From contig JAFDHG010000009.1 in assembly GCA_019308925.1 (NCBI GenBank), positions 1 to 44,852 of the forward strand: 44,852 nt of DNA, given 5' to 3'. The translations under genes and the position numbers were made by a program. The DNA comes from Deltaproteobacteria bacterium. GTDB taxonomy: Bacteria; Desulfobacterota; B13-G15; RBG-16-54-18. The notes under the pieces are model-generated. The model worked only from the letters and a program-made list of their open reading frames with translations, did not search any database and was not told the DNA's origin. Of the stretch, positions 16,714 to 35,212 are shown one piece after another (within the stretch, counting starts at the first letter, position 1; every line of letters starts with the position of its first letter).

Positions 16714-18696
16714 TTAGATCCGAATACCTATTCTGTAACCATCATGAACCGCACTTGATAGATTTCGAGGTACCAGTGCGTCACCGATTACAAAAAGTTC
16801 AATACCATTTTCCTGAACTACATCTTTCAAGACAGTGTTTGCCTCTCTCTCTGAACAGACTACAGTGTCTGCCTTCACCGGAATCCTATAACCATCGTAA
16901 GTTATAACAGTCACACCATCATCTGTAATTTCTTCAATATCGCAATCGTTATAAGTTGCTACCTTATTTTGCCTTAAGTAGCCAACATATCGCCATAAAA
17001 AGGAGGGATTAATATCCTTTCCAAGCTTTTTTTCTTTTCCTACGATGGTCACCTTTTTCCCCTGTTTGGCCAAGAACAGGGCCACTCCGATCCCCGGCTT
17101 CATGTTTCCCCAGACAACAACATTATCACCAACCTGGGCTGTTCCATTCAGGACATCCAGTACCGTGACAACATTTTCTCGATCAAAACCAGGGGCAGTA
17201 CCCTTAACATACTGAGGGCCAGTTGCCAGGACAACAGTGTCTGGCATCTCCTCTTCTATTAACTCTTCGGTAACTTCTGTGCCTAAATGGAAATTTACTC
17301 CTGCCTTTTCACATTGAGCCTTGTGAAAATTTATTACTCCATAGAGCTCATCATCTCCATAGGGCGCCTTGGATGCCTCGATAATAGTTCCGCCCAATTC
17401 CTCTCTCTTATCGTACACATGGACCTCATGACCTCTTTGGGCTGCCACCCAGGCACACTCAAGACCTGCCGGCCCAGCACCGACAATTATAATATTCTTT
17501 TCCATCTCTGCTGGTTTGACCTGATACTTTGGATCCCATTCGTGGGCACAAACAGGGTTAATATAGCAGGTCATGGGGGCATCGCGGAAAAGCCTTGCCA
17601 GACAGAGATTGCATGCAACACAAGGTCTTATCTCGTCCTCTGTTCCTTCCAGGACCTTTTTGGGCATAAGTGGGTCAGCAATCATCGGTCGGCACATCTC
17701 CCAGATATCCAGTTTGCCCTCTTCAATAGCTTTATTGGGTAGCTCCGGGATAAAGAGCCTATACGCCATCATGACAGGAATTTTGAGGTGTTGTTTGGCA
17801 CGCTCAGCCAAATGGAGCCAGTTACCCTGGGGAATGTCTCTGCTGATCACGGGGTAGATCGATTCTTGCCAACCAAGGGTAACACTCATGTAGTCTACTC
17901 CTGCCTCCTCTGCCATTTCATAGGTGATCATCGATTCTTCAGGTGTATTTCCACCCACATCATCTAAGAGCTCATCAGAACAGAGCCTGATACCAACGGG
18001 TACATTATCGCCGCATACCTTTTTCACCTCTTGGATGCATTCCACAACAAACCTCATCCTTCCCCGTATATCCCCACCATACTCGTCTGTGCGCCTATTG
18101 GTATAGCTGGATAGGAAGTTGGAAAGAAGATAACCCACAATCCCGGAAATCTCAACGATGTCAAATCCCGCTTTGAGCAGTCTCTCGGTGGCCTCAGCAT
18201 GTTCCTTAAGACACTGTTTAATGTCTGCCTTGGTCATCTCTTGGACAGGCCTAAAAATCCTCAATCGTTGGGGAACAGCCGAGGGCCCTTGGCAATATTC
18301 CGTCTCAATCGCTCCGACTCGTCCACAGTGCATCAACTGGCAGGCAGCTATTGCCTTTTCTTCATGAATGACATCGGCAAGCCTTTTTAAGCCAGGTATG
18401 AATTTGTCATCCCAGGCTGCAGCCTGACCAACGTATCCCTGACCTTGTCGGCCCTTATCCATATATACACCCTGCATAGTGCATATACCACCGACAACTC
18501 CTTTAGCCCTTTCCCGTAAGTAGGCTACGCCTGCATCGGTAACAAAACCGTCTCTGCCGTTTAAATTATCCTCAGTAGCAGCATATTTTATCCGGTTTGG
18601 GATGGTTAGCTTACCGATCTGAATCGGCTTAAACAGATGGGGGTAGTTTTTGTACCCTGGGTATTTGGTATAATCCCACTTAACTTCGGTCCCCAT
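16714..18696 (-). CDS. 2,4-dienoyl-CoA reductase/old yellow enzyme-type flavin oxidoreductase
   Basis: The ~660-residue protein has the three-part layout of FadH-type reductases. An N-terminal FMN TIM barrel (HLFKPIQIGKLTIPNR, QLMHCGRVG, SNFLSSYTNRRTDEYGG) is followed by a [4Fe-4S] cluster motif (CVACNLCLARLF, then Cys about 12 further) and an FAD/NAD(P)H domain (IIIVGAGPAGLECAW, VVVWGNMKPG). Such enzymes reduce conjugated enoyl-CoA; anaerobic 2-naphthoyl-CoA reductases also belong to this family, and I cannot tell these apart by eye. The start ATG at 18696 is chosen for GAGGAGG about 6 bp upstream. It is the first gene of the leftward operon. Confidence 0.87.
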   Translation of the reverse strand: MGTEVKWDYTKYPGYKNYPHLFKPIQIGKLTIPNRIKYAATEDNLNGRDGFVTDAGVAYLRERAKGVVGGICTMQGVYMDKGRQGQGYVGQAAAWDDKFIPGLKRLADVIHEEKAIAACQLMHCGRVGAIETEYCQGPSAVPQRLRIFRPVQEMTKADIKQCLKEHAEATERLLKAGFDIVEISGIVGYLLSNFLSSYTNRRTDEYGGDIRGRMRFVVECIQEVKKVCGDNVPVGIRLCSDELLDDVGGNTPEESMITYEMAEEAGVDYMSVTLGWQESIYPVISRDIPQGNWLHLAERAKQHLKIPVMMAYRLFIPELPNKAIEEGKLDIWEMCRPMIADPLMPKKVLEGTEDEIRPCVACNLCLARLFRDAPMTCYINPVCAHEWDPKYQVKPAEMEKNIIIVGAGPAGLECAWVAAQRGHEVHVYDKREELGGTIIEASKAPYGDDELYGVINFHKAQCEKAGVNFHLGTEVTEELIEEEMPDTVVLATGPQYVKGTAPGFDRENVVTVLDVLNGTAQVGDNVVVWGNMKPGIGVALFLAKQGKKVTIVGKEKKLGKDINPSFLWRYVGYLRQNKVATYNDCDIEEITDDGVTVITYDGYRIPVKADTVVCSEREANTVLKDVVQENGIELFVIGDALVPRNLSSAVHDGYRIGIRI

Positions 18697-18763
18697 TTTT
18701 AACCTCCTCAAATTTTCTTTTTATACCAGTATATTATAAACTGTGAGGACTTAATTGTGAACA

Positions 18764-18791
18764 ATTTTACAATTACGAGCGTTTTTGTCAA
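18764..18791 (-). promoter_or_regulatory. Leftward promoter for the 17-gene operon
   Basis: On the minus strand a -35 TTGACA (18786-18791) and a -10 TAAAAT (18764-18769) are separated by 16 bp, about 65 bp before the start codon of the flavin oxidoreductase. Both hexamers match sigma-70 consensus at 6/6 and 5/6. A second TTGACA (18842-18847) has no matching -10. Confidence 0.6.
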
Positions 18792-18875: not shown

Positions 18876-18903
18876 TTGATAAAATAAGATCATATTGTAT
18901 ACT
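18876..18903 (+). promoter_or_regulatory. Rightward promoter overlapping the operator
   Basis: A -35 TTGATA (18876-18881) and a -10 TATACT (18898-18903) are spaced by 16 bp and point toward the acyl-CoA dehydrogenase gene. The -10 lies inside the inverted repeat at 18892-18914, so a protein bound there would block polymerase. A weaker leftward pair (minus-strand TTGATT 18926-18931 and TATACA 18903-18908, 17 bp apart) overlaps the same repeat. Confidence 0.55.
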
Positions 18904-18914
18904 GTATACAATAT
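18892..18914. promoter_or_regulatory. Operator 1: perfect 11-1-11 inverted repeat, probable GntR/FCD site
   Basis: The arms ATATTGTATAC and GTATACAATAT are perfect complements around a central T. The core TGTATAC recurs at two other promoters in the window, and the arrangement fits the yGTM-N(0-1)-KACr style of FadR/GntR sites. It sits in the ~395 bp between the divergent flavin oxidoreductase and acyl-CoA dehydrogenase genes. The rest of that gap holds the promoters above and a direct repeat of TTTTTGTCAAG (18782 and 18838); I see no gene in it. Confidence 0.7.
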
Positions 18915-19091
18915 TGACTTTTAAAAATCAAGATCTTTTTTGATGCCTATGGAGTAGACAGGTTTAAGGTGATTATGTTATTTAGGGAATGTTGGTGAAA
19001 ATCGTTGGGAGACGAATTCATATGGAGTCCATTCTTCCCTGTTATCGTTTTGGTCAAGTCTTCAAGTAATACTAAAAGAGTATCTGATATC

Positions 19092-20234
19092 ATGATGCTA
19101 ACACGAGAACATCAATTCTTCAGAGAAGAGATATCTAAGTTTGTGGCAAAAAGGATCGCTCCTCTTGCCGCAGAGATAGACAGCAGGGATGAGTTTCCCA
19201 TAGAACTCTTCAAGGAGGTGGGGAGATTGGGTTATTTCGGCATCAGATATCCTGAGGAATACGGTGGAGTAAATGCCGACGCCATCACATTTTCGATCTT
19301 TGCCGAAGAGCTAGCCAAAGGGTCCCTGGCCTTCGCAGCCTTGTGCATGATGCAATCTTTGATGGGTACTGATTTCCTTTATCGCTTCGGAACTCGGGAG
19401 ATAAAGGAGCGATTGTTCAAGCCGGCATTGAGGGGGGAGAAGATTGGAATCATTGCCTTTACAGAGCCTAACTGCGGTTCTGATCTGGCATCTACCGAGA
19501 CTACGGCTAGAAGGGAAGGTGATCTCTACATTCTCAATGGTGCAAAGACGTGGATCACAAATGCTCCTTTCGCTGATTTCTTTACGGTAGTGGCCACTAC
19601 AGACAGGAGCCTGGGATTGAAGGGCCTGAACTTCTTTTTGGTCGAAAGGGGGACAGACGGCTTCTCTGTGGGGAAGAAGATAGAAAAGATGGGGGCCCTC
19701 GGCGCCTGGGTAGGTGAGATTGCCTTTGATGGTTGTAGGATCCCGCGGGATTATCTCTTGGGCGAGGAGGAGAACAAAGGGGTGATATATCTGGGCTGGA
19801 TATTGAACGAAATAAGGATCATGATGGGATCCCTTGCCCTTGGTCTTGGCAAGGCTGCCCTGGAGGCGTCTATACGATATGCAAAGGAAAGGCAGGCCTT
19901 TGGCAGGCCAATAGGGAAGTACCAGTTGATACAGGAAAAGATCTCCCGAATGGCCACAGAGCTGGAGGCCTCCAGGTGGTTGTTGCATAGGGCGTGTACC
20001 CTGAAGGATGAGGGCCTTCCCTATGCTACGGAGGCAATGATGGCCAAGGTCCATGCAGTGGAAGCAGCCATTATGATAGTCGATGAGGCGAGGAGGATCC
20101 ATGGGGCCTACGGATATTCTCGAGAGTATCCAGTAGAGAGGATGTTCAGGGACGCAGGGTTCCTCCTATATGGTGGTGGCACCCAGGAGATCCTTAGGCT
20201 GAATATCGCTAGGGAGATTATGAGGAGGATGTGA
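19092..20234 (+). CDS. Acyl-CoA dehydrogenase (second copy)
   Basis: The ~380-residue flavoenzyme has the family's AFTEPNCGSDLAST motif (near 122-135), ILNGAKTWITNA and QAFGRPIGKYQLIQ. The frame is open from a TTG at 19005, but the conserved protein begins at the ATG pair 19092/19095, with only a weak AAAGAG upstream. The usual catalytic Glu of the C-terminal (I/Y)EGT motif is Gly362 (LLYGGGTQEI); Glu240 (WILNEIRIM) sits near the helix-G position used by isovaleryl-CoA dehydrogenase and is a candidate base. It is transcribed divergently from the large operon under the shared operator. Substrate unknown. Confidence 0.88.
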   Translation: MMLTREHQFFREEISKFVAKRIAPLAAEIDSRDEFPIELFKEVGRLGYFGIRYPEEYGGVNADAITFSIFAEELAKGSLAFAALCMMQSLMGTDFLYRFGTREIKERLFKPALRGEKIGIIAFTEPNCGSDLASTETTARREGDLYILNGAKTWITNAPFADFFTVVATTDRSLGLKGLNFFLVERGTDGFSVGKKIEKMGALGAWVGEIAFDGCRIPRDYLLGEEENKGVIYLGWILNEIRIMMGSLALGLGKAALEASIRYAKERQAFGRPIGKYQLIQEKISRMATELEASRWLLHRACTLKDEGLPYATEAMMAKVHAVEAAIMIVDEARRIHGAYGYSREYPVERMFRDAGFLLYGGGTQEILRLNIAREIMRRM

Positions 20235-20280
20235 TTTTGAGATTGCAGTCCCTCTTTTCCGAGGGCCAAGGAAAAAACGC

Positions 20281-20310
20281 TTGACAAAAGAGTTCCTTAA
20301 GTTGAATAAT
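20281..20310 (+). promoter_or_regulatory. Promoter of the TRAP transporter operon
   Basis: A perfect -35 TTGACA (20281-20286) and a -10 AATAAT (20305-20310) are separated by 18 bp. The predicted transcription start near 20317 is immediately before operator 2, a typical repressor arrangement. The leader to the dctP start is about 160 nt and contains an AAGGAGG followed by ATG-TAG (20391-20406). Confidence 0.6.
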
Positions 20311-20318
20311 TGGCATGG

Positions 20319-20328
20319 TTGTATACAA
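20319..20328. promoter_or_regulatory. Operator 2: TTGTATACAA palindrome
   Basis: The 10-bp perfect palindrome TTGTATACAA shares its core with operator 1 (18892-18914) and operator 3 (23443-23459) and sits at the predicted transcription start of the TRAP operon. Unlike the other two it has no spacer base and a single core. Confidence 0.55.
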
Positions 20329-20475
20329 TTTTGTTCTTATATATAGTTTTTAACTAGCTTAAATTAAAGAATAATTTAAAATCTTATTAAGGAGGTGAAA
20401 TTATGTAGAGGAAAGGTGAGGGGGTAAGTTTAGGTTAGGGAAACGGGGTAAACAATCTTTTAAGGAGGTGTGATG

Positions 20476-21519
20476 ATGAAAGGGAAAAGATTTTTCAGTG
20501 GAGCAGTGGTATTGTTGGGGGTTCTGGCACTGTTATCCATCAGCATAGTATCTCCCCCATCTGCAAGCGCTGGGGTGATAAAACTCAGTTATGCCAACTT
20601 CCCACCTGCACCTACCTTCCCCTGCGTCCAGATGGAGCGGTGGGCAAAGGAGGTGGAGAAGCGTACCGATGGTAAGGTCAAGATCGACACATACCCTGGG
20701 GGGACCTTGCTCGGTGCCAAGAATATGATGGATGGTGTGATCGCAGGCACTGCCGATATCGGCTGCCTCTGCATGGCCTATCAGCCAGGTCGCTTTATCG
20801 TAACGAATGCGACTGCCCTTCCCGTTGGCTTTCCTAATGCCACGGTAGCCAGCCTTACATTATGGGATATTTACAATAAGTATCAACCGAAGGAATTTGC
20901 CGATGTGAAGGTCCTGACCATGTTTACCTGCGCGCCTTCCAACATCATGTCCAAAAAACCGGTACGAACTTTGAGCGATATCAAAGGCATGAGCCTGCGA
21001 GCTTCAGGTGGCGCTGCCCAGATTCTCAAGGCATGGGGAGCGAACCAGGTAGGGATGCCCCAGTCAGAATGTCCCGAAGCGCTACGAAAGGGCGTGGTTC
21101 AGGGGTTGTTTTCTTCTCTTGAGGTCCTTATGGACTTCAAATATGCTGAGATCTGCCGGTATGTGACAGTAACCAATACGGTTATTTACCCCTTTGCTGT
21201 GGTGATGAATAAGAAAAAGTGGAACTCCTTGCCTGCCGATGTAAAAAAGGTCATGGAAGATCTAGGAAGGGAACAGGCCGAGTGGACAGGCAAATACATG
21301 GATGATCATGTCAACAAGTCCATTGCCTGGTCGAAAAAGACCTATGATATTGAAGTATATATCCTTCCGAAAAAAGAGATGGCCAAGTGGAATAAATTGC
21401 TGGAACCGATATCGGATAAATGGGTCAAAGACGCTGCAGCAAAAGGCATTCCGGCAAAGAAGATCTTAAAAGACATAAAGAAGCTGAATAAAAAATACAG
21501 CAAAAAATACGGAGGCTAG
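20476..21519 (+). CDS. dctP: TRAP transporter substrate-binding protein (DctP family)
   Basis: The ~347-residue exported protein binds an organic acid for the TRAP carrier. A clear signal peptide comprises a basic start (KGKRFF), a hydrophobic core and an A-S-A-G cleavage region near residue 32. The mature part follows the DctP pattern (LSYANFPPAPTFPC, TYPGGTLLGAKNMMDGVIAGTADIG, GMSLRASGGAAQ). In-frame starts exist at 20470 (GTG), 20473 and 20476; AAGGAGG at 20462-20468 best fits the ATG at 20476. Genes for both membrane subunits follow. The ligand cannot be predicted; the neighbouring CoA-transferase and dehydrogenase suggest a carboxylic acid that is then activated to a CoA ester. Confidence 0.92.
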   Translation: MKGKRFFSGAVVLLGVLALLSISIVSPPSASAGVIKLSYANFPPAPTFPCVQMERWAKEVEKRTDGKVKIDTYPGGTLLGAKNMMDGVIAGTADIGCLCMAYQPGRFIVTNATALPVGFPNATVASLTLWDIYNKYQPKEFADVKVLTMFTCAPSNIMSKKPVRTLSDIKGMSLRASGGAAQILKAWGANQVGMPQSECPEALRKGVVQGLFSSLEVLMDFKYAEICRYVTVTNTVIYPFAVVMNKKKWNSLPADVKKVMEDLGREQAEWTGKYMDDHVNKSIAWSKKTYDIEVYILPKKEMAKWNKLLEPISDKWVKDAAAKGIPAKKILKDIKKLNKKYSKKYGG

Positions 21520-21530
21520 TCCTGCAGTAT

Positions 21531-21562
21531 CCGGCAGAGGGGTTTGTGTGCCCCTCTGCCGG
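21531..21562 (+). other. Intercistronic hairpin between dctP and dctQ
   Basis: CCGGCAGAGGGG and CCCCTCTGCCGG form a perfect 12-bp stem with an 8-nt loop directly after the dctP stop codon. No T-run follows, so it is not a standard terminator. A hairpin here could protect the dctP message and limit read-through so that binding protein exceeds the membrane subunits. Confidence 0.8.
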
Positions 21563-21587
21563 CAGAGACGGGGTACAGGAAGGGGCA

Positions 21588-22082
21588 ATGGTTAACTATC
21601 TGGAAAAGATAAGCACATTCCTGAATCAACTGCTTCTTTGGGTTGGTGGTATCACCTTGGTAGGAATGATACTTCTGACATGCTCCAATATATTTCTCCG
21701 TGTTGTTTGGATCCCTATCAGGGGCACTTTTGAGCTTATGGGTTTTTTTGGTGCCATCGTTGCTGGCTTTGCCCTGGGCTATACTCAAATTAAGCGGGGT
21801 CATATTGCAGTGGATATCTTGGTGAATCAATTTCCCCAAAAGACCCAGGCAATTTTAAACAGTATCAACTATTTTATCTGCATGATTTTCTTTGCTATTG
21901 CTGCCTGGCAGATTGCGAAGTGGGCTACAATCCTCTGGAGGACAGGAGAAATAACCGAAACGCTGAGAATCATCTATTTCCCCTTTACCTATGGGCTTGC
22001 TTTGGGATGCGCTGTTCTCTCCTTGGTGTTGTTGACCGATCTATTGAAGTCGTTCATGCAGGATAAGGATCTGAATACGTGA
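21588..22082 (+). CDS. dctQ: TRAP transporter small membrane subunit (DctQ family)
   Basis: The ~164-residue protein has four hydrophobic segments and the DctQ arrangement (FLNQLLLWVGGITLVGMILLT, a polar loop with GTFELMGFFGAIVAGFALGYTQIKRGHI, then two more helices). It forms the transporter with DctM. I chose the ATG at 21588 because AGGAAGGGG lies 4-5 bp upstream and the earlier in-frame residues are encoded by the intercistronic hairpin region. It overlaps dctM by 4 bp. Confidence 0.9.
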   Translation: MVNYLEKISTFLNQLLLWVGGITLVGMILLTCSNIFLRVVWIPIRGTFELMGFFGAIVAGFALGYTQIKRGHIAVDILVNQFPQKTQAILNSINYFICMIFFAIAAWQIAKWATILWRTGEITETLRIIYFPFTYGLALGCAVLSLVLLTDLLKSFMQDKDLNT

Positions 22083-23383
22083 GCTTAGCTGTTATCGGAA
22101 CAATTGGAATAGTCATCCTTCTCCTTGCCTTATTCTTTCTGGGAATGCCTGTTGGTTTTGCCATGGCAGTGGTGGGCTTCTGCGGGTTTTGGTATGTGGT
22201 TTCGTTTGAAGCAGCTCTCGGCGTGGTAAGTACTGACTTGTGGACTACATTTTCCAAATATGGTCTGACTGTAATCCCCCTTTTCATCTTTATGGGTGAG
22301 ATTGCCTTCTATTCTGGCGTAAATGAAAAGTTGTATAATACAGCCTATAAATGGATAGGACAGGTTCGCGGGGGTATTGCCATGGCTACGGTGATGGCAT
22401 GTGCCGGTTTTGCCGCTATCTGTGGTTCTAATGCAGCGACAGCGGCTACCATGACCGCGGTAGCTCTTCCCGAGATGAAAAAATATCAATATAAACCAAT
22501 GCTGAGTACTGGCGCTATTGCCTGTGGGTCCACCCTTGGTGTTGTTATTCCTCCCAGTGTAGTCCTTATTGTTATAGGTCTATACACTGGGCAGTCTATA
22601 GCTAAGCTTTTCTATGGTGGGGTTTCGGCCGGTATTATACTGGCTATCCTTTTTATGATAACCATTTATATTTTGTGCTCGGTAAATGCCGAGTGGGGGC
22701 CTGCCGGCCCTAAAACAAGCTTTAAGGAGAAGCTGATATCCCTTCCAGGCGCCTTAGAGATGCTCATTCTATTCCTACTCGTTATGGTCGGTCTTTATTT
22801 TGGTTTCTTTACCCCCACAGAAGCCGGGGCTGCAGGTTCTTTTATGGCGCTCATTATTGTTCTTGCGGAGCGGAGACTGAGTTGGAGAGGGTTTGTTGCC
22901 TCGGTTGTGGATACCTTGCGAATATCATGTATGGTCATTGTTATCGTTACTGGTGCAGTTATCTTTGGAAGATTTCTGGCGGTAACCAGGATTCCCTTTG
23001 ACATTGCAACCTGGGTTACCGCACTCCCTGTACCCAACATGATGATTATGGCGATTATTTTTTTTATTTATATGATAGGCGGCGCGGTTATGGATGCCCT
23101 TGCCCTACTTATGATTACTATCCCGATCTTTTACCCTGTGGCCTTAGAACTCGGCTATGACCCTATATGGTTTAGCGTGACCATAACTGTCGTAACGACT
23201 ATGGGCGCAGTAACACCGCCGGTGGGGGCGACGACCTACGTGGTTGGCGGGATGGCCAAGGACGTTCCTCTAGCAAGCGTCTTCAGAGGAGTAACCTACT
23301 TTTTACCAGCGTATGTTGTGTGTGTTATAATATTGATGATGGTTCCCCAGGTCGCAACATTTTTACCCAGCCTTATAAAATAG
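22079..23383 (+). CDS. dctM: TRAP transporter large membrane subunit (DctM family)
   Basis: The 434-residue integral membrane protein carries about a dozen hydrophobic segments and DctM motifs such as ACAGFAAICGSNAATAATM, the PPS motif in VVIPPSVVLI, and TPPVGATTYV near the C-terminus. It is the ion-coupled permease of the TRAP system. It starts at a GTG overlapping the dctQ stop (GTGA), implying coupled translation. No terminator is visible before the CoA-transferase gene 100 bp downstream. Confidence 0.93.
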   Translation: MSLAVIGTIGIVILLLALFFLGMPVGFAMAVVGFCGFWYVVSFEAALGVVSTDLWTTFSKYGLTVIPLFIFMGEIAFYSGVNEKLYNTAYKWIGQVRGGIAMATVMACAGFAAICGSNAATAATMTAVALPEMKKYQYKPMLSTGAIACGSTLGVVIPPSVVLIVIGLYTGQSIAKLFYGGVSAGIILAILFMITIYILCSVNAEWGPAGPKTSFKEKLISLPGALEMLILFLLVMVGLYFGFFTPTEAGAAGSFMALIIVLAERRLSWRGFVASVVDTLRISCMVIVIVTGAVIFGRFLAVTRIPFDIATWVTALPVPNMMIMAIIFFIYMIGGAVMDALALLMITIPIFYPVALELGYDPIWFSVTITVVTTMGAVTPPVGATTYVVGGMAKDVPLASVFRGVTYFLPAYVVCVIILMMVPQVATFLPSLIK

Positions 23384-23442
23384 GAGATCGAGGAGGACTA
23401 GGGAAAGACCACAAGGGAGGATCGGCATAAAGATCATAAAAA

Positions 23443-23459
23443 TTGTATACAGTATGCAA
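23443..23459. promoter_or_regulatory. Operator 3: TTGTATAC-A-GTATGCAA inverted repeat
   Basis: This 8-1-8 inverted repeat differs from the operator 1 core by one base in the right arm. It lies 25 bp before the CoA-transferase start codon. No convincing -35/-10 pair is visible next to it, so its effect may be on a promoter overlapping the site or on read-through from the TRAP genes. Confidence 0.6.
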
Positions 23460-23483: not shown

Positions 23484-24683
23484 ATGAAAGAGGAAAAACT
23501 TTTTGCAGGTATCACAGTCTTGAGTTTAGAGCAGGCCACTGTGCTTCCTTATCTGACTTATCGTCTGGCACAGGATGGGATGAAGGTGATTCGGCTGGAA
23601 CATCCTGTATATGGCGACCCCAACAGGAAGGTTGGGGAGGACAGGCTGGGAGATCCTTTGCTGAGGACCTATTTCTTGCCCATAAATTCTGGCAAGAAGG
23701 CCATCACCCTCAATTTAGGGGTGCCAGAAGGAAGAGAGTTATTGTATCGCCTGATCGAGCAATTAAATGTGGCCATATTCGCCACCAACCAACTCCCCAG
23801 AAACTATCAAAAGCTCGGCATAGACTATGAGACCCTGTGTGGGGTTAAAAAGGATATCATCTGGTTTGGTGTGACTGGATTCGGTCCTGATAGCAATGAG
23901 GCCGCCTATGAGCCTATCCTGGAGGCGAGGGGGGGGTTGATGGAGATGACCGGGGAGAAGGGTGGTACCCCGATGGTCTTGGGGGTCCCACTTTCTGATA
24001 TGGGAAGCAGCGAACATGGATATGGCCTTATTATGAAGGCCCTTTATAGACGCCAACTCACAGGGGAGGGGACGCGCATAGACCTCGCCATGTTTGAGAG
24101 CACCGTCTCTTGGCTGACAGTCCCCATTACCCTTACCAAATCGTTCGGCAAAGAGATCACCCGCCGGGGGAATACCCACGAGTTCTTCGCCCCGGTTTCG
24201 GTATATGAGAGCAAAGATGGATATGTGTATATCGCGGTTGGCAACGATCGCCAATGGGAAGACTTTACGAAGATACCTGGCTTTGAATCTTTGAGCAAAG
24301 AGGAATATAAGACCAATGCCGGCCGTATTGCCGATGTACAGGACCTCAACAGACAAATAAACGAGATCACCAAGCAATTTTCCACTGAGGAGCTCATCGA
24401 TATCTTCAATCAACGGACCATCCCGGTCTCCAAGATCAACACCATTGAAGAAGTCATCCAAGACCCGCTGGTGGCGAGGAGATTGCTCATCACCAAGGAC
24501 CCCAAGACAGGGACCGAGATCACCCTCCCTCCTCCTCCCTATATGACACCTTACTTGCAGTCCATAAATAGGACCTTATCTTTCCCCCCCCGTTTCGGGG
24601 AGCACAATGAAGAGATCTACGGAAAGACGCTGGGCATGGGCCCTGAGGAGATTGCGGGGTTGAAGGAAAAGGGAATAATCTAG
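23484..24683 (+). CDS. Family III CoA-transferase (CaiB/BaiF type)
   Basis: The 399-residue protein belongs to the CaiB/BaiF/Frc family, which moves CoA from a donor ester to a carboxylic acid. Family segments seen are ITVLSLEQATVLPYLTYRLAQDGMKVIRLE, SGKKAITLNLGVPEGRELL and GLIMKALYRRQLTGEGTRIDLAMFE. The usual catalytic Asp appears to be within VPLSDMGSSEHG (near 170). It directly follows operator 3 and probably activates the imported acid. It starts an operon with etfB-etfA-fixC-fixX and the GntR regulator. The donor CoA ester cannot be deduced. Confidence 0.88.
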   Translation: MKEEKLFAGITVLSLEQATVLPYLTYRLAQDGMKVIRLEHPVYGDPNRKVGEDRLGDPLLRTYFLPINSGKKAITLNLGVPEGRELLYRLIEQLNVAIFATNQLPRNYQKLGIDYETLCGVKKDIIWFGVTGFGPDSNEAAYEPILEARGGLMEMTGEKGGTPMVLGVPLSDMGSSEHGYGLIMKALYRRQLTGEGTRIDLAMFESTVSWLTVPITLTKSFGKEITRRGNTHEFFAPVSVYESKDGYVYIAVGNDRQWEDFTKIPGFESLSKEEYKTNAGRIADVQDLNRQINEITKQFSTEELIDIFNQRTIPVSKINTIEEVIQDPLVARRLLITKDPKTGTEITLPPPPYMTPYLQSINRTLSFPPRFGEHNEEIYGKTLGMGPEEIAGLKEKGII

Positions 24684-24716
24684 GCAAAGACCAGTTGGAG
24701 AAAGAAGGGTTTGGTC

Positions 24717-25508
24717 GTGAATATTGTGGTCTTGGTGAAGCAGGTGCCGGACAGCGAGGCGATGGTCCAGTTGAAGGCCGATAGGTCGGCAGTGGAGGTG
24801 GAGGATAAATATACCCTGAACTTCTTCGACTCCCTGGCAATGGAAGAGGCCTTGCGGATCAAGGAACAGGTAGGCGCCGGTAAGGTGACGGTTATCTCTC
24901 TAGGGACGCAAAAATCTGTTGAGGCCTTGCGGACTGGGGTGGCGATGGGGGCTGATGAGGCTGTCTTATTGGAGGATCCGGCCTTTGAGGGTGGGGACGA
25001 GTATACCACGGCCAAGGCCCTGGCCCAGGCCATTAAAGAAATGAAGTATGACTTGGTCTTTTGCGGTAGAGAGGCCTTTGATGATTCCTCGGGGGCAGTG
25101 GGTCCCTTGGTAGCGGAGTTTTTAGGTATCCCTCATATTACCGTAGTAGTGAAGGTGCAGGTCTCCCCTGAGGAGCGGGCGGTTGTTGTGGAGAGAGAAA
25201 TAGAGGGAGGCAAGGAGGTAATAAGGACCCCCCTGCCTGTCCTTATTTCTGCGCAAAAGGGGCTCAATGAACCTCGTGTGCCGCCCGTAATTGGAGTGAT
25301 GAAGGCCATGCGGGCAGAGATCAAGAGATTAAATTTGGATGCCCTTGGTCTTTCTCCGGATGAAGTAGGGCGTGCGGGGGCCAAAGAGGAGGTACTGCGC
25401 TATTATCGACCCCCTGAGAGGCCTTCTGTTACCATGCTAGAAGGCGAGGCACCTGATGTGGTGAGGGAGCTGGTAGAGCTCCTTAAAGAAGAGGCCAAGG
25501 CTATCTAG
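24717..25508 (+). CDS. etfB: Electron transfer flavoprotein beta subunit (second copy)
   Basis: The protein begins MNIVVLVKQVPDSE, the standard EtfB start, when read from the GTG at 24717, 7 bp after GAAGGG; a TTG two codons upstream is less likely. Conserved segments include DSLAMEEALRIKEQ, GADEAVLLEDPAFEGGDEYTTAKAL and FCGREAFDDSSGAVGP. The last differs from the more common GRQA.D of the first copy (11430-12230). It pairs with the EtfA encoded next. Confidence 0.9.
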   Translation: MNIVVLVKQVPDSEAMVQLKADRSAVEVEDKYTLNFFDSLAMEEALRIKEQVGAGKVTVISLGTQKSVEALRTGVAMGADEAVLLEDPAFEGGDEYTTAKALAQAIKEMKYDLVFCGREAFDDSSGAVGPLVAEFLGIPHITVVVKVQVSPEERAVVVEREIEGGKEVIRTPLPVLISAQKGLNEPRVPPVIGVMKAMRAEIKRLNLDALGLSPDEVGRAGAKEEVLRYYRPPERPSVTMLEGEAPDVVRELVELLKEEAKAI

Positions 25509-25518
25509 GAGGTATGAG

Positions 25519-26511
25519 GTGTCAGGAGGGGTATGGGTCTTTGCAGAACATCAGGATGGCAGGATCAGGAAGGTGGCCTTAGAGCTATTGGGCAAGGGGA
25601 GGGAGTTGGCGGAGAAACTGGGTCTGGAACTGGCCGCCCTACTGTTCGGTTCAGGGGTGGATGGTCTGGCCAAAGAATTGACCCTGTACGCTGATAAGGT
25701 CTATCAATGGGACGACCCCCTTTTGGAGAAGTACAACTGTGATGTCTATCTTCAGCTCCTATCAGATCTGGCAGTTAAAGAGACGCCTCAAATCCTCTTA
25801 GCTGGAGCCACTGTTTTGGCCAAAGACTTGTTCCCCCGTGTGGCGGGCAGGTTGAGTACTGGGATTGCCATGGATTGTTTGGACCTCGAGCTGGGGGATG
25901 ATGCCCTCATGATAGCCAGAAAGCCGTTTTTTGGCGGCAAGGTCTGGGCTGACGTTGCCTGTCGTGAGGGGAGGTCCCAGATTGCGCTGGTAAGGCCCAA
26001 CACGTTTCCAGTCCCTACTGCCAGTGGGGATATCACAGGAGAGGTGCTTAAACAAGCAGTTGAAGTTGATCCCACCCAAGTCAGGTTGGAGGTGCTAGAG
26101 ATAGTTAGGGCCGCCAAAGAGAGGTTAGACCTCACCGAGGCAGAGGTCATCGTCACGGGGGGGAGGGGGATGAAGGGTCCGGAGAACTTCCAGTTGTTGG
26201 AGGAGTTGGCCGATTGCCTAGGGGCCACCGTAGGGGCCACCAGGGCAGTGGTGGACAGCGGATGGAAGCCCCATGATGACCAAGTGGGCAAGAGTGGCAA
26301 GACCGTTTCCCCCAAGCTCTACTTTGCCATTGGGCTCTCCGGGGCCATTCAACACATTATGGGGATGGATACCTCCAAGGTGGTGGTGGCCATCAATAAA
26401 GACCCCAGGGCCTCCATCTTCCAATACGCCGACTATGGGATCGTGGGGGATCTCTTTGAGATCGTTCCGCTTTTGACGTCAGAACTAAAAAAGGAATTGG
26501 GTAAGAGATAG
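25519..26511 (+). CDS. etfA: Electron transfer flavoprotein alpha subunit (second copy)
   Basis: The 330-residue EtfA begins at a GTG with AGGAGG 6 bp upstream. The FAD domain is complete, with VTGGRGMKGPENFQLLEELA, then DSGWKPHDDQVGKSGKTVSP, LYFAIGLSGAIQH and VVAINKDPRASIF. The flavin-contacting QTG of most EtfA proteins (present in the first copy as IGQTG) is KSG here. This may tune the flavin potential. It lies 10 bp after etfB. Confidence 0.9.
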   Translation: MSGGVWVFAEHQDGRIRKVALELLGKGRELAEKLGLELAALLFGSGVDGLAKELTLYADKVYQWDDPLLEKYNCDVYLQLLSDLAVKETPQILLAGATVLAKDLFPRVAGRLSTGIAMDCLDLELGDDALMIARKPFFGGKVWADVACREGRSQIALVRPNTFPVPTASGDITGEVLKQAVEVDPTQVRLEVLEIVRAAKERLDLTEAEVIVTGGRGMKGPENFQLLEELADCLGATVGATRAVVDSGWKPHDDQVGKSGKTVSPKLYFAIGLSGAIQHIMGMDTSKVVVAINKDPRASIFQYADYGIVGDLFEIVPLLTSELKKELGKR

Positions 26512-26515
26512 TACC

Positions 26516-27805
26516 GTGGAGAGGATAGATGCAGTGGTGGTAGGGGGAGGGTTAGGGGGACTTGCAGCCGCCTACTGCCTTGCCAAGGAGGGTATCCAGG
26601 TCCTGGTCTTGGAGCGGGGTGACCATCCTGGCAGCAAGAACGTGACCGGTGGTAGGATCTACCTGAATCCTGTACGTTCCTACCTGCCTGACCTCTGGGA
26701 GGAGGCACCCCTGGAGAGGTTGGTTACCAAGGAGATAATTACGGTAATGGGGGACGATACGTCCTTATCTTTGCAATTTACGTCGAAGAAGTTTCGCGAA
26801 GGACCTCCACATAGCTATACGATCCTTAGATCGAGATTCGATAGGTGGTTTGGTGAACGAGTGACGGAAATGGGGGGGTTTGTAATCCCTCAGCGGCGGG
26901 TCACCGATCTCATGAAGGAGAATGGCCGTGTGCTGGGTGTGGTGTCCGAGGGTGAGGAGATACCGGCCAATATAGTCATCATTGCCGATGGTGCCCTTTC
27001 CTTGATGGCGGAGAAGGCTGGTTTGCGCAAGCCCTTGCCGCCCAAGCATGCGGCAATGGGGGTCAAAGAGGTAATAAAGCTCTCGCCAGAGGTAATTGAG
27101 GAGCGTTTTGGCTTAAAGTCAGGGGAAGGGGTTGCGCAACTCTTCTTTGGGTCCATCACCCATGGGATCTTCGGCAGTGGGTTTCTCTACACCAACCGGG
27201 ATACCATCTCTCTTGGTTTGGTAGTGGGGATAGAGTCTTTTTTAAAGAGTCAGCCCCCCATTGAGGTTCATCAACTCCTCGAGGAATTCAAGAAAAGGAA
27301 AGAGGTGGCAAGCCTTATCAAAGGTGGGGAATTGATGGAGTATTCCGCCCACCTTATCCCCGAGGGGGGAGACAGGCCTCTGCCCAGACCCTATGGCGAT
27401 GGAATAGTGGCGGTGGGAGACGCCGCAGGCCTTGCCCTCAATATGGGGATCACCGTGCGAGGGATGGAATTTGCCTTTGCCTCGGGGTACATGGCAGCCC
27501 AGACGGTCATGAAAGCCAAGGAGGAGGGAGATTTCTCCGCCTCCACGCTCGCTCACTATGAGACCCTGCTCAGGGAGAGCTTTGTCCTGAAGGATATGGA
27601 GACCTTTCGCAACAGCTTGGAAGTGTTAGAGAATCCTCGGTTAGTAAGCTTTTATCCCCATTTGCTGTGCAGGATTATGGAGGAGCTTTTCTGGATAGGT
27701 GAGGGGCCCAAGGAGAAGATTTCATCCACCCTGTGGAAGGGAATAAAGGAGGGGGTTTTTAACCTGGGGGGCCTTAAGGACCTCTGGATGTTCAGGAGGA
27801 TATGA
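26516..27805 (+). CDS. fixC: FixC-like flavoprotein (second copy)
   Basis: The 429-residue FAD protein starts from a GTG 4 bp after etfA and has the dinucleotide motif VVVGGGLGGLAAAYCLAKEG and GDAAGLALNMGITVRGMEFA near the C-terminus. It is the same length as the first FixC (12518-13807) and aligns along its whole length, but with many substitutions. It likely takes electrons from the EtfAB encoded upstream and overlaps fixX by 4 bp. Confidence 0.9.
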   Translation: MERIDAVVVGGGLGGLAAAYCLAKEGIQVLVLERGDHPGSKNVTGGRIYLNPVRSYLPDLWEEAPLERLVTKEIITVMGDDTSLSLQFTSKKFREGPPHSYTILRSRFDRWFGERVTEMGGFVIPQRRVTDLMKENGRVLGVVSEGEEIPANIVIIADGALSLMAEKAGLRKPLPPKHAAMGVKEVIKLSPEVIEERFGLKSGEGVAQLFFGSITHGIFGSGFLYTNRDTISLGLVVGIESFLKSQPPIEVHQLLEEFKKRKEVASLIKGGELMEYSAHLIPEGGDRPLPRPYGDGIVAVGDAAGLALNMGITVRGMEFAFASGYMAAQTVMKAKEEGDFSASTLAHYETLLRESFVLKDMETFRNSLEVLENPRLVSFYPHLLCRIMEELFWIGEGPKEKISSTLWKGIKEGVFNLGGLKDLWMFRRI

Positions 27806-28080
27806 TGGACCCTGCTTCTAAACTTGCCCTAGATGCCTTCAAGAACGACAAGGAATCCCATATCCTCATCCGACAGGAGATCTGTAAGAGCTGTGCTGAG
27901 AAGTACTGCCTCTATGTATGTCCGGGAGGACTCTATTCCATAAACGAGGAGACGGGAGAGCTTCTGATCGAATATGCGGGTTGTCTGGAGTGCGGTAGTT
28001 GTCGGGTGGCCTGCCCCTACGGCGCCTTGGAATGGAGTTACCCCCGAGGCGGTTTTGGGGTACAATACAGGTATGGTTAA
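27802..28080 (+). CDS. fixX: FixX-like ferredoxin (second copy)
   Basis: The 92-residue ferredoxin has CKSCAEKYCLYVCPGGLY and CLECGSCRVACPYGALEWSYPRGGFGVQYRYG, the FixX signature. Compared with the first copy (12243-12521) the first motif lacks its fifth Cys. The start overlaps the fixC stop, and its own last codons overlap the start of the GntR gene, making etfB through gntR one tightly packed unit. Confidence 0.9.
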   Translation: MMDPASKLALDAFKNDKESHILIRQEICKSCAEKYCLYVCPGGLYSINEETGELLIEYAGCLECGSCRVACPYGALEWSYPRGGFGVQYRYG

Positions 28081-28765
28081 GAGAGGACTTTGGGAAATCA
28101 AGGACCGAGAACGCAAGACTTTGCGTGAGGTTGTCTACGAAAGGATCAAAAGGGGTATCCAGAGGGGGGAATTTAAGGCCAAGGAACGGCTCATCGAACA
28201 GAGGCTGGCTGAGGACTTGGGGGTGAGTCGGACCCCCATTCGTGAGGCCGTCTCCAGGCTGGAGCAGGAAGGGATGCTAGACAAGGTCCCCCGAGGAGGG
28301 ATAGTGGTGAGGGGGACCACCAACGAGGAGATCGAGGAGGTCTTCGGTCTCAGGGCGATCCTGGAGAGTTATGCAGCCTCCCTGGCCACCAAAAAGATGG
28401 GTGAGAAGGTGTTGACAAACCTGCAGGGGATCATCGATAGGTCGCAGCAGGCCCTGGAGAGGGGGAACATCGATAAATTCATCCAGTTAAACACCGAGTT
28501 TCATGAGGTGATATATCGCTCAAGCCGCAGTGATAAGCTCTATCAGATGATCAACAACCTGCGGGACTATTTTTATAAGTACCGGGTCTTCATCTTAAGG
28601 ATAAAGGGCATGCCGCAAATGTCCTTGCGAGATCACCAACTGATGGTGCAGGCCATGAGGGAAGGGAATACCCAAAAGGTGGAGGAGCTGGTCAAAGAGC
28701 ACATCTTGAGGGGAAGAGAGAGACTATTGAAGGCGATAGAGAGAGGGAGGCTTCCCTTAGAATAA
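28073..28765 (+). CDS. GntR-family regulator, FCD (FadR-like) subfamily
   Basis: The ~230-residue regulator has an N-terminal winged helix (LREVVYERIKRGIQRGEF, LAEDLGVSRTPIREAVSRLEQEG, residues ~17-68) and an all-helical FCD ligand domain with metal/ligand His residues in NTEFHEVIY, RDHQLMVQAMREGN and EHILRGRERL. The frame is open from 27974, but the real start is the ATG at 28073, overlapping the fixX stop by 8 bp. FCD regulators usually sense an organic acid or acyl-CoA and release DNA. Operators 1-3 carry the same core and are the likely targets, one of them upstream of its own operon, giving feedback control. That link is inference. Confidence 0.9.
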   Translation: MVKRGLWEIKDRERKTLREVVYERIKRGIQRGEFKAKERLIEQRLAEDLGVSRTPIREAVSRLEQEGMLDKVPRGGIVVRGTTNEEIEEVFGLRAILESYAASLATKKMGEKVLTNLQGIIDRSQQALERGNIDKFIQLNTEFHEVIYRSSRSDKLYQMINNLRDYFYKYRVFILRIKGMPQMSLRDHQLMVQAMREGNTQKVEELVKEHILRGRERLLKAIERGRLPLE

Positions 28766-29025: not shown

Positions 29026-29061
29026 AAGAAGAACCTAGAATAAATGGATAAGGAGGGGGCT

Positions 29062-29460
29062 GTGAAGAGGCGGATAAAGGTATTGATGGCCAAACCGGGT
29101 CTAGATGGACATGATCGGGGGGCCAAGGTGGTGGCCCACGCCTTGCGAGATGCGGGGATGGAGGTGGTCTATACAGGCTTGCATCAGACCATCGACCAGA
29201 TCATCAATGCCGCCATTCAAGAGGATGCGGATGTCCTTGGGCTGAGCATCATGTCCGGGGCTCATCTCCCCATCTGTGAAAAGATCATGAAGAGGGTAAG
29301 AGAAGAAGGGATGGATGATATCTTGGTGGTGGTGGGGGGGGTCATCCCGACCAAGGATATCCCTAAGCTAAAGGAGTTGGGGGTAGATGGGGTTTTCCCA
29401 GGAGGGACGCCATTTCCAGAGATAACAACCTTTATTAAAGAGAATGCGAGAAAGGGATAG
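29062..29460 (+). CDS. Methylmalonyl-CoA mutase B12-binding (small) subunit
   Basis: The ~132-residue protein is a stand-alone cobalamin-binding domain with the DxHxxG motif (KPGLDGHDRGAKVV), LGLSIMSGAH and GGVIPTKD. It joins the catalytic subunit encoded 11 bp downstream. An ATG at 29044 is in frame, but AGGAGG at 29051-29056 lies after it and 5 bp before the GTG at 29062, so the GTG is the better start. Confidence 0.92.
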   Translation: MKRRIKVLMAKPGLDGHDRGAKVVAHALRDAGMEVVYTGLHQTIDQIINAAIQEDADVLGLSIMSGAHLPICEKIMKRVREEGMDDILVVVGGVIPTKDIPKLKELGVDGVFPGGTPFPEITTFIKENARKG

Positions 29461-29471
29461 GGAGGAAGACC

Positions 29472-31112
29472 ATGGGTGTGGCCAAGTACAACAAGGGAGA
29501 AAAGGATGCTGTGGAGGAGGTTATCCTTCAGTCAGGCATGCGAATAAAGCCCGTATATACCCCCCAGGATTTGGAGGAGATAGGTTTCGACTATGCCCAA
29601 GACCTGGCTGACCCAGGTATATACCCTTTCACCAGGGGGATCCACAAACTGGGGTACAGGAGCCGGGCCTGGACCACAAGACAGTACACCGGTTTCGGCA
29701 CCCCCAAGGAGACCAATGAACGGTTTAAGCTCATGATCTCCCAAGGTCAGACCGGCCTCAACGTGGCCTTTGACCTCCCCACCCAGATGGGGCTTGACTC
29801 CGATGACCCTTTGGCTGAAGGAGAGGTGGGGCGAGTTGGGATGGCAGTGGATACCCTGAGGGATTTTGAGATTGCGTTTGCTGACATCCAGCTCGATCGC
29901 ATCGGCAGCGGCCTCACCATCAATGCTGTTGCCTCCATCATGTTAGCTATGTACCAGGCAGTGGCCGAGAAGTTTGGGTACTCTCCCAAGGTGATCAGTG
30001 CCACCCCCCAAAATGATATCCTCAAGGAGATGATTGGGAGGGGAATGTGGATCTTTCCGGTGGATCCCGCTGTCAGGCTTATTGGGGATACCATGGAATA
30101 CAGCATTACTACCATGCCCCGAACCAATCCGGTGAGCGTATGCGGTTATCACATCAGGGAATCGGGTGCTACACCTGCCCAAGAGATCGCCTATGGTTTT
30201 CAGATCGCCAACTCCTACATCGAGGAGGTGGTTAAACGGGGTTATCACATAGATCAGTTTGCCCGGGGGATCACCTTCAACTTTAATATCTTTGGTAACC
30301 TATGGGAGCAGGTCGCCAAGTTTAGGGCGGCCCGTAAGCTGTGGGCAAAAATACTCAAGGAACGGTGGGGGGCCAAGGACAACCGGACCATGTTCCTGAG
30401 GGGGCTGTTCGGGGGTGGAGGATCAGGGCTCACCAAGGAGCAACCTATCATAAATGCTGTGCGGAGTGCCTATTATGCCCTTGCTGCAGCCTTGGGTGGA
30501 GCACAGACCACTGCCCTGTGCTCTTACGATGAGGCCTATACCATCCCCACCCCCTATTCTGCACTTATTTCCTTGCGAACTTGCCAACTTTTGATGGATG
30601 AGGTGGGGCTACGCGACACCGTGGACCCCTTAGCTGGCTCCTATTTCATCGAGACACTCACAAAACAGATGGAGGATAGGATTCTGGAGGAGATAGAGGA
30701 AGTCGATAGGGTAGGGGGTATGAAGGATGCAGTTGCCACAGGCTATGTCCAAAGGAAGGTGGCTAGGCAGGCCTATGAATGGCACAGGGGGTTGGAGACC
30801 GGTGAATACGTCAAGATCGGGATCAACAAATACACCGATCCTGGCGCCTTGGGTAGTGAGGGGAAGGTAGAGCTCCACGAATATGATTCACGCACTGCCG
30901 AAGAGCAAATCCAGACCCTGAATGAGGTGAAGCGCACCCGCAATGGGCGAGAGGTCGCCATGCGATTGAGGGAATTAGAGGGTGCAGCCAGGTCGAGTAA
31001 GAATGTTATGCCCTATCTTTTGGAGGCGGTTAAGGCATACGCCACTGTGGGGGAAATGACCGAGGTCTTTAAAGAGGTCTACGGGAAGTTTCAGGAGCCG
31101 AGCATCTTTTGA
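29472..31112 (+). CDS. Methylmalonyl-CoA mutase large (catalytic) subunit
   Basis: The 546-residue TIM-barrel subunit lacks its own B12 domain, which is supplied by the preceding gene. Positions that set substrate in the acyl-CoA mutase family match methylmalonyl-CoA: Tyr72 (TTRQYTGFG), Arg190 (LKEMIGR) and His227 (CGYHIRESG), equivalent to Tyr89, Arg207 and His244 of the Propionibacterium enzyme. Isobutyryl- and 2-hydroxyisobutyryl-CoA mutases differ at the first two. The enzyme interconverts succinyl-CoA and methylmalonyl-CoA. No MeaB-type chaperone gene is in the window. Confidence 0.93.
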   Translation: MGVAKYNKGEKDAVEEVILQSGMRIKPVYTPQDLEEIGFDYAQDLADPGIYPFTRGIHKLGYRSRAWTTRQYTGFGTPKETNERFKLMISQGQTGLNVAFDLPTQMGLDSDDPLAEGEVGRVGMAVDTLRDFEIAFADIQLDRIGSGLTINAVASIMLAMYQAVAEKFGYSPKVISATPQNDILKEMIGRGMWIFPVDPAVRLIGDTMEYSITTMPRTNPVSVCGYHIRESGATPAQEIAYGFQIANSYIEEVVKRGYHIDQFARGITFNFNIFGNLWEQVAKFRAARKLWAKILKERWGAKDNRTMFLRGLFGGGGSGLTKEQPIINAVRSAYYALAAALGGAQTTALCSYDEAYTIPTPYSALISLRTCQLLMDEVGLRDTVDPLAGSYFIETLTKQMEDRILEEIEEVDRVGGMKDAVATGYVQRKVARQAYEWHRGLETGEYVKIGINKYTDPGALGSEGKVELHEYDSRTAEEQIQTLNEVKRTRNGREVAMRLRELEGAARSSKNVMPYLLEAVKAYATVGEMTEVFKEVYGKFQEPSIF

Positions 31113-31180
31113 ACAAGATCAAGCATTCGGTTATATGAACAGTGTAGAGAAAAGTAGGTTGGGGACTCAGGAGGTGTTGC

Positions 31181-33274
31181 GTGGATAGAGGATTGTACCG
31201 CTTGGGGTGTGATATCGGCGGCACCTTTACCGATTTCGTGCTCTTAAACGATGAAACTGGGGAGATCCAGATCAACAAATGCCTCACGACCCCCGTGGAT
31301 CCTTCCGAGGCTGTGGAGGGGGGGATCCGGCAGATGCTGGACCGGACCCCGGGCTTTATGGAGCACCTTGAGGAGATAATTCACGGGACCACCCTGGTCA
31401 TCAATTCTATCATTGAAAGAAAGGGGGCCAAGACCGGGCTAATCACAACAAAAGGCTTTAGAGATGTATTGGAGCTGGCTAGGGAAAAGCGATATGATAC
31501 CTATGACATCTTTGCCGTCTATCCAGAGCCACTTGTCCCCAGGCCTCTGCGGATGGAAGTAGATGAGAGGATTACCAGCGATGGGCGTATATTGAAAAAA
31601 TTGGACCCTGAAGAGGTGAAGAGGGTTTTAAATAAGCTCATTGATATGGGTATTGAGTCATTAGCGGTGTGTCTTATAAATTCTTTTGAGAACCCGGTTC
31701 ATGAGTTGATGATCAAGGATATTGTATCCAGAGAAGCTCCTGACCTATCCCTCTCTATTTCCTACGAGGTTCTACCTCAAATAAGGGAATTCGAGAGAAC
31801 AAGTACCACAGTGACCAACGCTTATGTCAAACCCCTTACTGGAAGGTATATAGCTAGGCTATCCCAACGCCTAGATTCACTAGGTTCTACAGGGAAGTTG
31901 TTTATCATGCTCTCTAGTGGCGGTATTACCTCAGCAGAAACAGCCACGGAGTTTCCAGTAAGGGTTATCGAGTCGGGACCAACGGCAGCCGTTATTTCCG
32001 CGGTATACTTTGGCAAGATGTTCGATGTTAAAGATATTTTTTGCTTTGATATGGGAGGGACAACCGCCAAATCCTGCTTAATTCAAAAGGGAGAGCCAGG
32101 AATGGTGTCAACCTTTGAGGTCGGTCGTGTTCACCGGTTCAAAAAGGGTAGCGGTCTTGACATTCAGGTGCCAGTGGTTGATTTGATGGAAATCGGGGCT
32201 GGCGGCGGGAGTATAGCTAGAATCAGTAAAATGGGACTCCTCCAAGTAGGTCCAGACAGCTCTGGAGCTGACCCTGGTCCTGTATGTTACGGTTTAAGTG
32301 GAAAAGAGCCAACGGTTACCGATGCTGATCTGGCCTTGGGCTATCTAGACCCCGACTATTTCCTGGGCGGAGAGATGAAGCTTGATAAGGAGTCGGCGCA
32401 GCAGGCTATTGAAGAAAAGATTGCCAAGCCTCTAGGGGTAACTCCCATAGAAGCTACTTGGGGTATTCACGACCTTATCAATGAGACCATGGCTGGTGCG
32501 GCAAAGACACACATTGCTGAAAAGGGAGGTAACCCCAAGATCGTTACCGTTTGTGCCTTTGGCGGAGCAGGTCCAGTTCATGCCTATGGCTTAGCCAAAA
32601 AGCTGGAAGCACCTAGAATCCTTGTCCCACCTATAGCCGGGGTGGGGTCTGCGCTGGGATTTTTTACCGCACCTAGAGCCTTTGACTTAGTTCGAAGCCA
32701 TAAAGTCGGCCTCCAAGACGCTGATTTCGCCGAAATTGAAAAGCTATTCCAAGATATGGAGAAGGAAGGGGCCGTTATCCTGCAAAAGGCGGGGACCATA
32801 GAGAACACCACCTATGAGAGGTCGGTTGATATGCGCTTTGTCGGGCAAGGGGCTGAGACCAACGTTCCTCTCCCAAATCGGGATTTCTCCCAGGTTATAA
32901 AGGAGGAAGTGCGGAACCTATTTGACCAAAGATACCAGGCTCTTTATGGTCGAACCTACCCTGAATCCCCGGCTGAGTTTGTAAACTTCAGGGTGAGGGC
33001 CAGCCTTCCCGAGCGCCCCTTACGTTTACCTAAAATAGAGAAGAGAGTAACCTCAGTTAAGGATGCAGTCAAGGGACAGCGTCCTGCCTATTCAGCAATT
33101 GCCAGAGATTTCATTCCCTACAGTGTATATGACCACTACAGCCTGTTTCCTGGAGCGCAATTTGATGGTCCAGCCATTGTTGAGGAGCGGGAATCAACTG
33201 CTATTATCGGCGAGGATGCTTCTGTCTCTGTGGACGATTATGGGTTTTTGTGGATTAATTTCAAGGAGGTATAA
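31181..33274 (+). CDS. Hydantoinase/oxoprolinase A-type (HyuA) ATP-binding subunit
   Basis: The 697-residue protein has the HyuA N-terminal motif CDIGGTFTDFVL, the conserved HGTTLVINSIIERKGAKTGLITTKGF, and the central MGGTTAKSCLI and GAGGGSI elements. This family includes 5-oxoprolinases, N-methylhydantoinases and the ATP-hydrolysing subunits of acetone and acetophenone carboxylases. Only the A and B subunits are present here; the gamma subunit of acetone carboxylase is missing. It starts at a GTG with AGGAGG upstream and is followed 2 bp later by HyuB. The substrate is open. Confidence 0.9.
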   Translation: MDRGLYRLGCDIGGTFTDFVLLNDETGEIQINKCLTTPVDPSEAVEGGIRQMLDRTPGFMEHLEEIIHGTTLVINSIIERKGAKTGLITTKGFRDVLELAREKRYDTYDIFAVYPEPLVPRPLRMEVDERITSDGRILKKLDPEEVKRVLNKLIDMGIESLAVCLINSFENPVHELMIKDIVSREAPDLSLSISYEVLPQIREFERTSTTVTNAYVKPLTGRYIARLSQRLDSLGSTGKLFIMLSSGGITSAETATEFPVRVIESGPTAAVISAVYFGKMFDVKDIFCFDMGGTTAKSCLIQKGEPGMVSTFEVGRVHRFKKGSGLDIQVPVVDLMEIGAGGGSIARISKMGLLQVGPDSSGADPGPVCYGLSGKEPTVTDADLALGYLDPDYFLGGEMKLDKESAQQAIEEKIAKPLGVTPIEATWGIHDLINETMAGAAKTHIAEKGGNPKIVTVCAFGGAGPVHAYGLAKKLEAPRILVPPIAGVGSALGFFTAPRAFDLVRSHKVGLQDADFAEIEKLFQDMEKEGAVILQKAGTIENTTYERSVDMRFVGQGAETNVPLPNRDFSQVIKEEVRNLFDQRYQALYGRTYPESPAEFVNFRVRASLPERPLRLPKIEKRVTSVKDAVKGQRPAYSAIARDFIPYSVYDHYSLFPGAQFDGPAIVEERESTAIIGEDASVSVDDYGFLWINFKEV

Positions 33275-33276
33275 AT

Positions 33277-35001: not shown

Positions 35002-35068
35002 TGATAATCTGGTAATAATTAACCATGGCGGGCTCCCCACTCACTAACCATGAAAATTCAATTTACTT

Positions 35069-35158
35069 CCCTCCCCCTTGATGGGGGAGGGTGAGGGTGG
35101 GGGTGAATAGGGAAATTTAGTTCCCCCTCCCCTTTATCCCCTCCCCCCAGGGGAGGGG
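35069..35158. repeat. GC-rich palindromic repeat (two 9-bp hairpins)
   Basis: CCCTCCCCC (35069-35077) pairs with GGGGGAGGG (35083-35091) across a 5-nt loop, and CCCCTCCCC (35138-35146) with GGGGAGGGG (35150-35158) across 3 nt. The segment resembles dispersed intergenic repeats found in many bacterial genomes. Without a T-run it is not a standard terminator. Confidence 0.7.
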
Positions 35159-35212
35159 AAGGATTTGAGTAATGTTATTTTCAGAGTAGCTAAAAAGAAA
35201 AAAGGAGAGAAA

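Follow-up and report, generated by a model that had tools for sequence, protein, structure and literature searches.

The window analysed here is a 44,852-nucleotide stretch of DNA from a Deltaproteobacteria bacterium (contig JAFDHG010000009.1), whose genome assembly amounts to 2.4 Mb in 120 contigs and is 98.97% complete. An OYE-type FMN/FAD oxidoreductase gene (16714-18711, minus strand) is the first gene of a leftward beta-oxidation operon. On the plus strand lie an acyl-CoA dehydrogenase gene, acd1 (19005-20234, start probably at 19092), the TRAP transporter genes dctP, dctQ and dctM (20470-23383), and an operon in the order caiB-etfB-etfA-fixC-fixX-regulator. This operon comprises a class III CoA-transferase gene of the CaiB/Frc type (caiB, 23484-24683), etfB, etfA and a gene for a fixC-type ETF:quinone oxidoreductase (24711-27805), a fixX-type ferredoxin gene (92 aa, 27802-28080) and a gene for a GntR/FCD regulator (230 aa, 28073-28765), the start of which overlaps the fixX stop. 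Further along the same strand are mcmBA, hyuAB, paaK and cutMSL (29044-40396), which are syntenic with the regulator in relatives and probably belong to the same pathway as the caiB operon. The B12-dependent mutase encoded at 29044-31112 is closest to 2-hydroxyisobutyryl-CoA mutase.

The fixX gene is missing from an earlier note on this DNA and is conserved in frame in the related genome G007. Its product has no Pfam or NCBIfam match at the cut-offs used; the assignment as fixX draws on cysteine motifs and on the position behind fixC. The regulator can also be read as a longer frame starting at 27974, but the 5' part of that frame overlaps the conserved fixX, which is encoded on the same strand in a different frame. 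We therefore place the start at the ATG at 28073; the overlap explains the false 33-residue N-terminal extension of the longer frame. The regulator matches PF00392 with 58.7 bits (cut-off 27) and PF07729 with 89.7 bits (cut-off 24.3) and, with a GntR winged helix and an FCD domain, is a member of the FCD subfamily of the GntR family. It is the sole regulator in the window and the last gene of the third operon, as the earlier note had described it. Genome-wide, we identified one FCD domain and one GntR domain, both in this protein, and a single GntR protein in the genome makes operator assignment unusually clean.

Three palindromes with a common word had been proposed as operators, and both the palindromes and the word were recovered. 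Site 1 (ATATTGTATACTGTATACAATAT, 18892-18914) is a perfect 11-1-11 palindrome containing the 17-bp form of the motif, site 2 (TTGTATACAA, 20319-20328) is the 10-bp form, and site 3 (TTGTATACAGTATGCAA, 23443-23459) is again the 17-bp form, an 8-1-8 repeat with one mismatch, with the caiB start 24 bp downstream; none of the three is assigned a strand. Considered as a bare palindrome, site 1 is exceptional, being the one 11-1-11 palindrome in the window, compared with 0.017 in shuffled sequences. Sites 2 and 3 are ordinary in this respect, with 33 ten-bp palindromes in the window vs 42 in shuffles, and 21 vs 20 for 8-1-8 repeats when up to one mismatch is allowed. The word common to the sites, TTGTATAC/GTATACAA, is overrepresented, with six occurrences in the window vs 0.77 in shuffles. 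A GT-AT-AC core is present in TTGTATACAA and in both halves of the 17-mer and agrees with the operator consensus of the FadR subfamily, a palindrome with a GT-N2-3-AC core (PMC4494728), although the T of GT varies among some of the homologous sites.

The motif is rare in the home genome. The 17-mer TTGTATACNGTATACAA, allowing at most one mismatch, occurs at two places in 2.4 Mb, which are sites 1 and 3. We also used a motif model derived from 32 sites, all from other genomes, with the core TGNATACWGTATNCA; these sites agree without exception at four G/C contact positions, which is partly built in, as the sites were chosen by motif similarity. With E values up to 10 allowed, a scan of the whole home genome with this model returned only site 1 (8e-5) and site 3 (4e-4). 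Frequent occurrence at unrelated promoters, which the earlier note had named as one outcome that would speak against a regulon, was thus not seen. Near-matches with three mismatches are not clearly commoner in the home genome than those of the reversed control pattern (12 places in all vs 6), and those looked at are either within coding sequence or close to genes without a clear link. In a scan of the window alone site 2 ranked third, with an E value of 0.65 that is not significant. The 10-mer TTGTATACAA has three copies genome-wide, about the number expected by chance: site 2, a copy within coding sequence, and a copy located 80 bp before an acyl-CoA ligase gene (L100:16667-16676, on contig C55 of the home genome, G000). 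The last of these is a possible fourth operator of the home genome. It is only a lead, since an acyl-CoA ligase gene preceded by a perfect 17-mer in genome G008 encodes a protein just 33% identical to the C55 ligase.

Promoter-like sequences are found close to two of the three sites. The -10 element of the putative acd1 promoter (TTGATA-16-TATACT, 18876-18903, plus strand, 10/12 matches) lies within site 1, and site 2 occupies approximately positions +3 to +12 relative to the putative promoter of the TRAP operon (TTGACA-18-AATAAT, 20281-20310, plus strand, 11/12). No promoter above threshold overlaps site 3, and the caiB genes may be read also from the TRAP promoter. On the leftward side the best candidates, two promoter-like sites on the minus strand (18733-18791, 11/12 each), are about 100 bp from site 1, and control of the OYE-led operon by this site is unproven. 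OYE orthologues were tried as a footprint for the left side of site 1 and set aside, as the best matches have only 32-35% identity. In other genomes we examined 28 operators, many of them from related loci that are not independent cases; 54% coincide at least in part with a promoter of 10/12 or more matches, compared with 2% of random positions. In several loci of the Desulfuromonas/Geobacter type the operator supplies the -10 element (TTGACA-16-TACAAT); in L121, L123, L126, L134, L137 and L145 this promoter is that of the FCD homologue itself. Upstream of caiB in L066 and L068, a strong promoter has a 10-bp operator on either side, the two being separated by about 53 bp, and this arrangement might allow DNA looping.

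We then turned to the conservation of the sites. Homologues of the regulator are present in 99 of 148 relatives, and 40 neighborhoods were compared, with regulator identities from 71% down to about 32%. The cluster caiB-(acd)-etfBA-fixCX-FCD-mcmBA-hyuAB-paaK-cutMSL recurs, whole or in part, in many families of the phylum, and homologues of acd1 are located in the caiB operon of relatives. We scored caiB as preceded by an operator if a 17-mer with at most one mismatch, or TTGTATACAA, was found within 250 bp upstream, which was the case for 11 of 14 loci. Two of the 14 had been found by the motif itself and were left out of an unbiased count of loci chosen by regulator similarity, in which nine of 12 carry the operator and three have none within this distance; the frequency in dinucleotide shuffles is about 0.1% per locus. 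In G007, a 17-mer identical to site 3 stands 21 bp before caiB. In some genomes the 10-mer (L063, L066, L068) replaces the 17-mer (L070, L071) at the same place before caiB. When the regulator gene leads the operon (L065, L067, L069), the operator precedes the regulator. Distant FCD homologues from Desulfuromonas/Geobacter (e.g. L121, L123, L126, L134) have the operator before their own gene, and no other cluster gene was found in those loci.

For the TRAP genes, we collected 16 dctP orthologues by protein similarity alone (at least 54% identity). An operator-like site lies within 300 bp upstream of eight of them and the other eight have none within this range, a count made without a shuffle control. 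The eight sites include one perfect 17-mer (in G008, with the same gene order) and two copies of TTGTATACAA, the rest being weaker. Support for site 2 therefore comes from its promoter position and from these orthologues, without significance of the sequence itself. We counted the 17-mer in 19 related genomes, allowing one mismatch, and found 0-3 copies per genome and 13 places in all, compared with one for the reversed control pattern. Seven of these places are before caiB and one each before an FCD gene, dctP, an acyl-CoA ligase gene, a VOC-family gene, iorA and livK; permuted control motifs are likewise rare in 2 Mb of neighborhood sequence. These comparisons support the view that the operator travels with the regulator subfamily and with its putative caiB and dctP targets across many families. 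Additional operators were seen before genes for an acyl-CoA ligase, dctP, iorA and livK (loci L198, L208, L210 (G008) and L209 (G007)), and the regulon appears to gain or lose members from one genus to another.

An AlphaFold2 model of the regulator, computed as a monomer with homologous sequences, has a pLDDT of 89.9 and six helices within residues 84-223. Since six helices in the C-terminal domain characterize the VanR group of FCD proteins and the FadR group has one more, the model places the regulator in the VanR group. Its best predicted-fold matches are Atu1419, McbR and PmiR; it also matches AlkR and TM0439. Residues N140, H144, H188 and H210 correspond to Asn137, His141, His192 and His214, described as the zinc ligands of Atu1419 (PMC7797058), and the three histidines are invariant in 17 homologues. 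The regulator thus carries the Asn/Asp and three His residues that mark metal-binding FCD proteins, and a metal site is predicted. That VanR proteins can respond to acyl-CoA is known from AlkR (PMC12042122). With the predicted metal site in a VanR fold, a carboxylate is no less likely than an acyl-CoA to be the ligand, and acyl-CoA is just one of the options. In an alignment, the B12-dependent mutase has the Tyr and Arg of methylmalonyl-CoA mutase, residues that we take to occupy the substrate positions, and this hints at a carboxylated substrate.

Among characterized proteins, Atu1419 of Agrobacterium fabrum (VanR group, PDB 6z74/6za3) shares the predicted fold and the Asn-His3 metal site, and is reported to bind the 10-mer ATGTATACAT (PMC7797058), which is likewise a 10-bp palindrome with a GTATAC core, at sites before its own operon and a neighboring target. 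Atu1419 stands for a type of FCD protein in which a tetramer binds two operators and loops the DNA. It differs in having only about 24% identity to the window regulator and in controlling hydroxycinnamic acid genes, and the excerpts of the Atu1419 report available to us describe no doubled 17-bp operator. PmiR of Pseudomonas aeruginosa (PDB 7xp0/7xp1) is the best sequence-profile match among solved structures and has a close fold (TM 0.85 by target) at about 26-28% identity; it is described as a regulator of carboxylic-acid catabolism that senses 2-methylisocitrate (Cui et al. 2022, through PMC13086498). AlkR (VanR group, PMC12042122) and FadR are, like the window regulator, FCD regulators of acyl-CoA-related genes, and the AlkR palindrome overlaps -10 regions as site 1 does, but AlkR has a different operator (ATTGTCAGACAAT), different targets and long-chain acyl-CoA ligands. 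NanR of E. coli (PMC8012715) is an FCD protein acting on closely repeated short elements, a possible parallel to the doubled 17-bp site. Its repeats are direct, (GGTATA)3, and its cooperativity requires a 32-residue N-terminal extension, whereas the window regulator has a short N-terminal tail only.

Taken together, we consider it highly probable that the FCD protein is a VanR-group repressor of caiB, the TRAP genes and acd1, which acts through two operator forms, is released by a ligand and represses itself. The regulator would bind a palindromic operator either in its 17-bp form, TTGNATAC-W-GTATNCAA, or in its 10-bp form, TTGTATACAA, and would thereby occupy site 1 at the acd1 -10 element, site 2 where the TRAP transcript begins and site 3 ahead of caiB-etfBA-fixCX-FCD; at these places the bound protein would block RNA polymerase sterically. 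Release would be caused by a compound of the pathway, most likely either a carboxylate bound at the metal site or the corresponding CoA ester. Site 3 stands at the head of an operon whose last gene encodes the regulator, so the protein would repress its own synthesis in a negative feedback. The sites, their rarity, their conservation with regulator and targets, the promoter overlap and the predicted fold are read from the sequence; binding, the sign of the regulation (repression, not activation), the nature of the ligand and any control of the leftward operon are what we infer. The single GntR/FCD regulon with feedback proposed in the earlier note is supported for caiB and acd1, by the comparative data and by rarity, and is probable for the TRAP genes; its extension to the leftward flavoprotein operon is the part that did not find proof.

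Other explanations of the same sites have to be weighed. It is unlikely that only sites 1 and 3 are operators, with site 2 a chance match and the TRAP operon outside the regulon. The chance-level count of TTGTATACAA, with a copy in coding sequence, and the non-significant model score would fit such a reading, but site 2 lies just behind the start set by an 11/12 promoter, a site is present at eight of the 16 dctP orthologues, in one case as a perfect 17-mer in the same order, and other genomes carry the 10-mer form in front of caiB. We regard activation by the ligand-bound protein as similarly improbable. CitO of Enterococcus, an FCD protein, is described as binding and inducing in the presence of citrate, and the lack of a strong promoter overlapping site 3 would suit an activator. 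On the other hand, about half of the loci have an operator lying across the -10 or +1 region, and the closest relative solved with DNA, Atu1419, is described as a repressor. Least probable by a clear distance is that another transcription factor reads the palindromes and that the FCD gene is a bystander in the operon. The pairing of FCD protein and operator is a prediction from sequence alone, yet the motif accompanies FCD homologues across many families, and does so also in the Geobacter-type loci where no other cluster gene was found, and its core half-sites agree with the specificity known for FCD proteins.

The repressor circuit favored here is of a well-known kind, of which this regulator is a new example. 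Less usual is that one regulator family appears to use two kinds of site, one of 10 bp and a doubled one of 17 bp; in a literature search, neither the 17-mer nor TTGTATACAA together with GntR led to a paper on such an operator. We tentatively suggest that a single VanR-type repressor reads both the 10-bp palindrome and the 17-bp site, which has two GTATAC cores 7 bp apart and may hold two dimers side by side, and that the form of the operator sets the strength of repression. If true, operator form would tune repression across a conserved and uncharacterised acid-degradation regulon of the phylum. The regulon proposed here is testable and concerns a conserved acyl-CoA pathway with CoA-transferase, ETF, B12 mutase, HyuAB and molybdenum hydroxylase, on which our literature search found no study, and knowledge of the regulator would offer a route to the substrate of the pathway through the ligand.
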